Of a stretch of 64,000 bases of DNA, positions 11,608 to 34,308 are shown one piece after another. Where the stretch lies: assembly GCA_021325375.1 (NCBI GenBank), contig JAJPHG010000020.1, forward strand, positions 62,001 to 126,000, read 5' to 3'. Each line of letters opens with the position of its first letter. Position 1 is the first letter of the stretch. The notes under the pieces are model-generated. The model saw nothing but the letters and a program-made list of their open reading frames with translations, was not told the DNA's origin and searched no databases. Made by a program: the position numbers and the translations under genes. This DNA is from Alphaproteobacteria bacterium. GTDB lineage: Bacteria > Pseudomonadota > Alphaproteobacteria > Micropepsales > Micropepsaceae.

Positions 11608-11682
11608 TGGCTCCCCGGGCCGGATTCGAACCAGCGACCAACCGGTTAACAGCCGGTTGCTCTACCACTGAGCTACCGGGGA
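11608..11682 (-). tRNA. tRNA-Asn (anticodon GTT)
   Basis: Read on the minus strand it begins TCCCCGGTAGCTCAG and ends CCGGGGA-G-CCA. The seven-base acceptor stem is fully paired, the anticodon loop is CTGTTAA in an ACCGG/CCGGT stem, the T arm carries TTCGAAT, and the discriminator is G, as expected for asparagine. The CCA end is encoded. It lies just after the glycosyltransferase gene on the opposite strand. Confidence 0.97.
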
Positions 11683-11777
11683 ACGCGAGGGGGCGTGTCT
11701 AGCGTGTCCGTTTGGCGATAGCCACAGCAATTTTGCCGCCCGGCCGAGGTTTTTGGGGCTGCGAAGTCGGCCCAAAG

Positions 11778-11806
11778 AAAAAAGGGCCGGGTGGTTAGCC
11801 CGGCCC
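11778..11806 (-). terminator. Rho-independent terminator (minus strand)
   Basis: On the minus strand a perfect eight-base stem GGGCCGGG/CCCGGCCC (11799-11806 with 11784-11791) encloses a seven-base loop and is followed by six T residues (11783-11778). The nearest minus-strand gene upstream is tRNA-Cys, 210 bp away, with a CtrA box in between, so it may end a small RNA rather than the tRNA transcript. Confidence 0.8.
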
Positions 11807-11850
11807 CAAGGCGTTGGGTAATGGTGGGGTGTCTTCAAGGGAAGACGAGA
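11778..11850 (-). ncRNA. Candidate small RNA between CtrA box and terminator
   Basis: There is no convincing open frame between the CtrA box (11870-11885) and the terminator (11806-11778) on the minus strand. The interval holds a perfect hairpin GTCTTC-CCTT-GAAGAC (11846-11831), then a C-rich stretch without self-pairing (ACACCCCACC, about 11833-11824), then the terminator stem-loop. A promoter whose -35 region overlaps the CtrA box would start transcription near 11840-11850, giving a 65-90 nt RNA. The 5' end is a guess. The alternative is that the box regulates nothing here. Confidence 0.3.
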
Positions 11851-11869
11851 GGATGATGCCTCGCTAAGG

Positions 11870-11918: not shown

Positions 11919-12018
11919 GTTGGCTTGCCAGGGCATAGCTGTGCGAACCGACTCACAGCCCGGCTTCGCCCTGCGGGCTTCGCCGTGGCAGGCTCCGCTG
12001 CTGCGCAGCGAAGCCTGG
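11919..12018. repeat. tRNA-flanking inverted-repeat element, copy A
   Basis: This 100-bp stretch matches 34121-34221 at about 90 of 101 aligned positions. Both copies end exactly at the encoded CCA of a tRNA gene (here tRNA-Cys). The element holds nested inverted repeats: TGCCAGGGC with GCCGTGGCA, AGGCT with AGCCT, and an inner hairpin GCCC-TGC-GGGC whose counterpart in the other copy is GCGC-ATTC-GCGC, a compensatory change. It does not code for a plausible protein. Confidence 0.85.
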
Positions 12019-12089
12019 AGGCGACGCCCGGAATTGAACCGGGGTAAACGGTTTTGCAGACCGCTGCGTAACCACTCCGCCACGTCGCC
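12016..12089 (-). tRNA. tRNA-Cys (anticodon GCA)
   Basis: On the minus strand it runs from GGCGACGTGGCGGAG to CGTCGCC-T-CCA. The acceptor stem GGCGACG/CGTCGCC pairs fully, the anticodon loop is CTGCAAA, the T stem CCCGG/CCGGG is perfect, and the U discriminator is the cysteine identity base. CCA is encoded and is shared with the end of the adjoining repeat element. Confidence 0.97.
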
Positions 12090-34120: not shown

Positions 34121-34221
34121 GTTGGCCTGCCAGGGCGTAGCCGCGCGAACCGATTCACAGCCCGGCTTCGCGCATTCGCGCTACGCCGTGGCAGGCTCCG
34201 CTGCTCCGCAGCGAAGCCTGG
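34121..34221. repeat. tRNA-flanking inverted-repeat element, copy B
   Basis: This is the second copy of the 100-bp element at 11919-12018, about 89% identical, and again ends exactly at the encoded CCA of a tRNA gene (tRNA-Ser). Differences fall mainly in one hairpin, where both stem sides changed (GCCC/GGGC in copy A, GCGC/GCGC here), so the structure is kept. No gene is visible in 34076-34218. Confidence 0.85.
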
Positions 34222-34308
34222 CGGATGGGGTGGGATTCGAACCCACGAGACCCTTGCGGGCCTGCCGGTTTTCAAGACCGGTGCCTTCAACCGCTCGGCC
34301 ACCCATCC
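34219..34308 (-). tRNA. tRNA-Ser (anticodon TGA)
   Basis: On the minus strand it reads from GGATGGGTGGCCGAG to CCCATCC-G-CCA, with a fully paired acceptor stem, the anticodon loop CTTGAAA in an ACCGGT/ACCGG stem, a long variable arm typical of class II tRNAs, and TTCGAAT in the T arm. The G discriminator and encoded CCA are normal. It is 90 nt long. Confidence 0.96.

Follow-up and report, generated by a model that had tools for sequence, protein, structure and literature searches.

Palindromic repeats fused to tRNA 3' ends in an alphaproteobacterium look like copies of a small GIY-YIG nuclease element of bacterial tRNA and tmRNA genes

The locus studied here raises the question of why two closely similar structured repeats, each about 100 bp long, are fused directly to the 3' ends of a tRNA-Cys and a tRNA-Ser gene in an alphaproteobacterial genome. 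The window, namely the whole stretch of 64,000 nucleotides of contig JAJPHG010000020.1 that was analysed, contains the features collected in Table 1. The initial annotation offered two explanations, either a mobile element that targets tRNA 3' ends or a conserved 3' trailer structure acting in tRNA processing, and its description of the copies proved accurate: BLAST gave the 89% identity that had been estimated, both copies start exactly at the encoded CCA of a minus-strand tRNA, which forms their first three bases, and the neighbouring tRNA-Asn, also on the minus strand, lacks the element. Model R1, which was built partly from these two copies, scored copy 1 at 107.9 bits and copy 2 at 116 bits, and its next best match in the window (E 0.018) was on the opposite strand, overlying copy 1. 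As a separate observation, a block between tRNA-Asn and tRNA-Cys (11769-11853, minus strand) is conserved in many genomes of the genus, has a terminator-like hairpin and shows sub-threshold Rfam similarity to the sRNAs mmgR, CC0196 and SorX; it is probably a small RNA.

Table 1. Element copies, their substructures and the tRNA genes concerned, in window coordinates
Feature	Position	Strand	Remarks
Element copy 1	11921-12018 (BLAST query began 11919)	-	98 nt by model; starts at tRNA-Cys CCA; without nuclease gene
P1 hairpin, copy 1	11990-12016	-	Outer pair uses A of tRNA CCA; structure of A2/R1
P2-closed domain, copy 1	11927-11989	-	Arms 11989-11981 / 11935-11927; encloses P3 GCCC/GGGC at 11978-11968
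tRNA-Cys(GCA), target gene	12016-12089	-	ARAGORN; encoded CCA at end
Element copy 2	34123-34221 (34121 by BLAST)	-	99 nt by model; starts at tRNA-Ser CCA; without nuclease gene
P1 hairpin, copy 2	34193-34219	-	
P2-closed domain, copy 2	34129-34192	-	Encloses P3 GCGC/GCGC at 34181-34170
tRNA-Ser(TGA), target gene	34219-34308	-	ARAGORN; encoded CCA at end
tRNA-Asn(GTT), unoccupied tRNA	11608-11682	-	ARAGORN

The BLAST search of the source genome (4.77 Mb in 45 contigs, with 45 tRNA genes) with copy 1 gave 11 close copies, and all 11 start at a tRNA CCA; in two long variants the BLAST match misses the first bases, and the CCA start was established separately. Chance placement is therefore excluded, and copies lying mostly away from tRNA genes, which had been named as the outcome that would contradict the initial annotation, were not what the genome contained. 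Ten of the copies adjoin intact tRNAs (Cys, Ala-GGC, Ala-CGC, Ser-TGA, Tyr, Leu-CAG, Leu-TAG, Asp, Val-TAC and Gly-CCC), and 10 of the 45 tRNAs carry an R1 element. Inspection of the 45 tRNA 3' ends by eye gave two more structured cases beyond model R1 (Thr-GGT and Pro-GGG) as well as possible remnants. At two loci of this genome (L045 and L049), a GGTCCG...CGGAC palindrome, which resembles 18 further sites in the genome, is inserted at the tip of hairpin 1.

The eleventh copy (C34:177k) starts at the CCA of a 3' fragment of tRNA-Thr(CGT) at the end of an island; a placement after a tmRNA was considered and rejected, the upstream piece being this tRNA-Thr fragment. About 27 kb separates this fragment from the intact tRNA-Thr(CGT), with the island (G000:C34:150283-177405; L007 and L018) in between, and next to the fragment is a tyrosine-recombinase-type ORF that has Phage_integrase and Arm-DNA-bind domains. 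Most likely, the island split tRNA-Thr(CGT) and pushed the element outward, and since the element lies on the fragment side, it was most likely there before the island.

The 3' ends of tRNA and tmRNA genes are classic attB sites. Islands often use the tmRNA, according to the available part of one report (PMC11915505), and like the element described here, tRNA- and tmRNA-targeting islands target the 3' end and leave the gene intact. The repeats could thus be scars left by tyrosine-recombinase islands, as the copy next to an integrase-like gene at the end of an island might suggest. Against this, the far ends of the 11 copies hold no repeat of the tRNA 3' segment beyond the CCA, which recurs in nine of them, the island at the one copy most likely arrived later than the element, and the gene that recurs next to the element encodes a GIY-YIG nuclease. 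We therefore consider an integration scar very improbable. In size, most loci measure about 100-400 bp, which leaves no room for a recombinase inside the element, and the integrase at the one copy belongs to the separate island.

This nuclease gene belongs to the full form of the element, which was found in relatives and consists of the tRNA CCA, a palindromic leader whose first arm starts at the CCA, and a stand-alone GIY-YIG gene of about 79 aa. The insertion leaves the tRNA whole, and shortened forms without the ORF exist at the same site. Many elements of the family precede a short ORF beginning M.YVYI, and in the source genome the copy at tRNA-Ala(GGC) is followed, about 70-80 nt further on, by a PF01541 gene at C3:50844. 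PF01541 was detected in all four proteins scanned (47-62 bits), and no separate DNA-binding, RNA-binding or any other Pfam domain was found in these four. The Y, Y, G, R, H and E columns, which we take to be the catalytic-type residues of the GIY-YIG domain, are invariant or nearly so in 22 proteins. The AlphaFold model (pLDDT 94.6) is a single bare GIY-YIG domain of 79 aa, with At-HIGLE, UPF0213 BH0048 and Slx1 as the nearest folds in Foldseek (E 0.0012-0.013; none at E 0.001 or better, the best being 1.2e-3). The median dN/dS was 0.053, calculated from the 91 of 136 pairs with dS below 2 among 17 Bradyrhizobium genes (the equal-length ones of 25 extracted); therefore, the nuclease protein is under strong constraint. 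Six other GIY-YIG matches in the source genome have no tRNA in their 3-kb loci. Five other GIY-YIG genes of this genome (L085, L086, L087, L088 and L090) each lie between inverted repeats of 16-43 nt with differing sequences; these may be related palindrome-plus-nuclease elements, that is, sister elements with other palindromes.

Concerning the distribution within the family, model R1 matched in 35 of 96 genomes and had no match in 61. When the best match was taken from each of 29 of the 34 other genomes with R1 matches, 25 of these 29 loci started exactly at a tRNA CCA, as did 13 of 20 further matches that were hand-picked from the list, one of them also among the 29; the remaining matches (4 of 29 and 7 of 20) are not exactly at an intact tRNA 3' end, and some of them are array copies or tRNA remnants. 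The C3:50844 protein, used as a query, matched in 50 of the 96 family genomes, with the weaker matches representing other GIY-YIG types. Among 30 nuclease loci chosen as best matches in those 50 genomes, 26 have a tRNA in the same orientation 96-847 nt before the gene, and in each the leader begins with CCA, the palindromes being judged by eye where R1 misses them; three of the other four (L094, L103 and L109) are near contig ends, the fourth being L121.

The same arrangement was observed far outside the family. In the best 80 of 568 relatives from named genomes, 66 nuclease genes are located less than 1 kb downstream of a tRNA (57) or of a tmRNA called by ARAGORN (9) on the same strand, whereas tRNAs within 1 kb in any other orientation or position numbered three; Rfam, applied to 20 of the 23 named loci without a tRNA, added a contig-cut tmRNA in L141, bringing the linked loci to 67. 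The 66 linked loci from these best 80 relatives span nine named phyla (Pseudomonadota 41, Acidobacteriota 8, Verrucomicrobiota 5, Myxococcota 4, Lentisphaerota 2, Thermodesulfobacteriota 2, and Planctomycetota, Fidelibacterota and Cloacimonadota 1 each, with 1 unknown), and their leaders start with CCA in 63 cases and with CCAGCCTTCGC in 48, the latter in six named phyla. Two non-CCA leaders (L143 and L160) seem to follow tRNAs without an encoded CCA and appear, by eye, right after the discriminator base; therefore, we place the insertion at the end of the acceptor arm. The other 13 of the 80 have arrays, the edge of a contig, 3' remnants of a tRNA or tmRNA, or no clear feature, and five of them have less than 350 nt of upstream sequence, an excuse that the others lack. 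Across 267 tRNA loci, mostly fetched for the element, 164 of the 166 first CCAnnCTnCG motifs within 100 nt after the tRNA were at offset 0. This exact placement at many isoacceptors and at tmRNA, together with the linked GIY-YIG gene, supports the first of the two original explanations, a mobile element targeting tRNA 3' ends.

On the protein tree (79 columns, 7 starred branches), which is poorly resolved, the phylum has to change 18 times (20 when the unknown group and all groups are included) and the target 27 times, which can be taken as a weak sign of movement between phyla and targets. One Bradyrhizobium protein had no match at E 1e-5 in 72,556 plasmid records or in 50,697 phage records; three loci on viral contigs were found, and no tRNA was called in them.

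Comparison of orthologous sites revealed full, ORF-less and shrunken forms, and empty sites in the genus of the window. Loci of tRNA-Cys were fetched from 30 of 69 genus genomes, and 3 of the 22 parsed are clearly occupied (the source genome, G045 and G046), while G067 may hold a remnant; in the others an unrelated flank follows the CCA, and many of these have a common block further downstream. At the Bradyrhizobium tRNA-Ala(GGC) site, 50 of 51 loci were parsed (L139 and L235 are the same place), of which 30 have the nuclease motifs in one open frame, 6 have a gene fragment and 14 have no motif, counts that are not frequencies because twenty loci were picked for split matches. This is the sole site with a traced far flank, and the common flank resumes there at the stop codon or no more than a few bases from it, as it also does in the ORF-less forms inspected. 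The smaller ORF-less forms retain hairpins only, the shortest insert is 40 nt with no fully empty site among the 50, L268 has an element of a different type in place, and nested forms also occur; at this site, long vertical residence is as visible as movement. In G017, a tRNA-Ala(GGC) and its element are tandemly duplicated and followed by further element copies (L061 1199-1597).

In another explanation, the nuclease and the palindromes would form a host-domesticated repair or recombination site that serves the host, with tRNA genes as a mere safe harbour, and both the strong purifying selection on the Bradyrhizobium gene and the lack of a fully empty tRNA-Ala site among the 50 loci would agree with that idea. 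Domestication is nevertheless improbable in view of the patchy presence (35 of 96 family genomes and 3 of 22 genus tRNA-Cys loci), the broken or missing gene in part of the parsed Bradyrhizobium loci, the replacement by another element type at one site and the wide range of targets. A mobile element is further supported by the empty, shrunken and replaced states of orthologous sites and by the occurrence in nine named phyla among the best 80 of 568 relatives.

The structure common to the copies was obtained with RNAalifold from nine of them and consists of a 5' hairpin (P1) starting inside the CCA, followed by a domain closed by P2, with P3 and a weaker helix. Two leader layouts occur, and in the second the tail CTACGGCTCGGCAAGCC sits within the P1 loop. 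The sequence also raised the idea of a self-cleaving ribozyme, which was set aside since P1 is a local hairpin. The P3 difference between the window copies had been described as compensatory (GCCC/GGGC versus GCGC/GCGC), which the nine copies corroborate, as the pair is GC in five, CG in three and UA in one. Covariation within these nine is modest, with four pairs showing double changes (equally high in 40 of 500 shuffles) and further pair types that were reached in 392 of 500 shuffles. Among 53 family elements, which were aligned to the model with a resulting bias in favour of pairing, 92.2% of cells are paired, 23 of 32 pairs have changed on both sides, none of 500 shuffles matched any of five pairing measures, and slid controls lowered pairing to 28-42%. 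Independently of any alignment, bases 4-11 have an exact reverse complement in 41 of the 66 linked named loci (from the best 80 of 568 relatives) compared with a mean of 0.26 after shuffling. The second outcome that was to count against the initial annotation, a covariance model with no significant pairing, thus did not occur, given the strong covariation in the 53 elements.

The strong, conserved pairing directly at the CCA would fit a functional RNA trailer, namely a structured RNA that is co-transcribed with the tRNA and directs its 3' processing, termination or stability, and the persistence of hairpins in ORF-less forms and the RNA folding z-scores of -0.8 to -4.4 in seven copies are in line with this. 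Under selection at the RNA level, however, G-U should be better tolerated than A-C. Helices 1-3 in the set of 53 elements gave 21 cases of G-T or T-G versus 18 of A-C or C-A, and in P1 of the named loci the counts were 6 and 6 (63 of the 66 loci, with the partner matching at least 8/10; best 80 of 568 relatives), whereas the control, made up of acceptor stems from 147 distinct tRNA genes in the retrieved loci, gave 47 versus 1; cells in these counts are not independent. Helix 4 alone resembles the control (70 versus 4), and it is given little weight because its consensus holds G-U pairs picked by RNA folding and pairs least well. As G-T is about as common as A-C, the pairing seems to be kept in DNA rather than RNA, and these base counts point to palindromes maintained in DNA, by selection or by arm-to-arm correction. 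Only tRNA and tmRNA families reached the Rfam cut-off, and no Rfam match to the element was obtained up to E 1 for copy 1 and the C34:177k copy. Considering also that most family genomes have no R1 match, that 10 of the 45 tRNAs of the source genome carry an R1 element, and that only 3 of the 22 parsed tRNA-Cys loci of the genus are clearly occupied, an RNA trailer is unlikely, and the proposal of a conserved trailer in tRNA processing was not upheld.

The closest known system that we found for the mobile GIY-YIG element is phage SegB. According to the available part of the report, SegB cuts inside phage tRNA genes, drives tRNA amplification and has the motif RAWTSGAAC at 23 of 83 sites (PMC13096335), and T4 segB is located between tRNA genes with an upstream RNA structure (PMC2988022, likewise in part). 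By sequence comparison, RAWTSGAAC may be read as the complement of the T-loop sequence common to the tRNA and tmRNA targets. As in SegB and free-standing GIY-YIG homing endonucleases, a stand-alone GIY-YIG gene adjoins tRNA genes, and the tandem duplication in G017 resembles SegB-driven tRNA amplification. In contrast to SegB, the gene here has about 79 aa, occurs in nine named phyla and respects a 3' boundary (63 of 66 leaders start CCA; both from the best 80 of 568 relatives), is joined to conserved DNA palindromes, has ORF-less copies at many tRNAs, also targets tmRNA, and has no matching phage record (one query protein, 50,697 records). Of the traits that define homing endonucleases, the GIY-YIG domain with its conserved residues is present (PF01541 in 4/4 proteins) and the gene lies beside its presumed tRNA target in 66 of 80 named (best 80 of 568 relatives) and 26 of 30 family loci, whereas a separate DNA-binding domain is absent from the four proteins.

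REP/REPIN sequences are short palindromes that do not move autonomously and are associated with a DNA-processing enzyme, the RAYT transposase. The element shares this organization, but its linked enzyme is of the GIY-YIG type and not a Y1 (RAYT) transposase, and all 11 copies of the source genome are at tRNA 3' ends, whereas REP/REPIN sequences are scattered extragenically. The word GIY-YIG does not occur in the available main text of the RepRanger paper (PMC12306157), and other Bradyrhizobium repeats are described in the accessible part of PMC5082802.

Slx1-like stand-alone nucleases are among the nearest folds of the predicted nuclease model, and Slx1 works with Slx4. At-HIGLE and Slx1 are nucleases of branched DNA, as far as their available descriptions go, and the prokaryotic members are described as the minimal GIY-YIG form (PMC1564403, in part); in contrast to the present element, neither tRNA-gene linkage nor palindromes appear in the available part of that description.

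In IscB-type systems, the guide lies upstream of the scaffold. The element shares with IscB and TnpB systems the order of parts only (flank, structured leader, nuclease gene), and a minimal RNA-guided nuclease of this kind, whose guide would be the leader RNA together with the tRNA 3' end next to it, could be redirected to any tRNA or tmRNA and would need no DNA-binding domain for this. It is, however, highly improbable, since the strand-symmetric pairing speaks against a selected RNA scaffold, Pfam found no RNA-binding domain in the four proteins, and the layout of the leader varies between two arrangements.

Based on this evidence, we assign a probability of roughly 0.7 to the explanation that these repeats represent non-autonomous members of a site-specific mobile GIY-YIG DNA element of tRNA and tmRNA 3' ends, which presumably cuts and homes. 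In such a mechanism, the nuclease would cut unoccupied tRNA or tmRNA genes where the acceptor arm begins or close to it, at its base, and would find this place either through the conserved T-arm, as SegB is reported to do, or through branched DNA; either kind of recognition would place the break at any tRNA or tmRNA gene. Repair of the break would then copy the element into the cut gene, and the palindromes may be the DNA substrate of the nuclease or a signal that shields the occupied gene. The ORF-less copies, including both in the window, would move in trans or be remnants.

A more tentative proposal, which we regard as possible and rather doubtful, is that a minimal Slx1-like GIY-YIG nuclease recognising DNA structure drives a class of bacterial mobile elements, cutting the junction at the base of a cruciform that may be extruded by a tRNA or tmRNA gene and spreading palindromic DNA without a transposase, recombinase or reverse transcriptase. 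Such a structure-targeted cut would make any tRNA-like gene targetable without a sequence-specific binding domain. At L326 (285-458), the 3' end of a tRNA-Met is followed by element-like sequence, and a further element on the antisense strand borders the 5' end of this tRNA with an offset of two bases; this 5' element, at one of 267 loci, leans towards a structural signal.

No description of this element was found by title or abstract in open-licence PMC papers, and it looks like an undescribed family of tiny mobile elements across several bacterial groups. The finding offers an origin for repeats fused to tRNA genes and an explanation for numerous small GIY-YIG genes, and the simple rule of looking at the tRNA or tmRNA 3' end worked for 66 of the 80 loci (best 80 of 568 relatives), which span nine named phyla. 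Integration by recombinases is known to concentrate at tRNA genes; an element built from a nuclease and palindromes at these genes would, if true, represent a route separate from that of recombinases. It would also bear on the duplication and movement of tRNA genes and would provide a compact site-specific DNA system to test.
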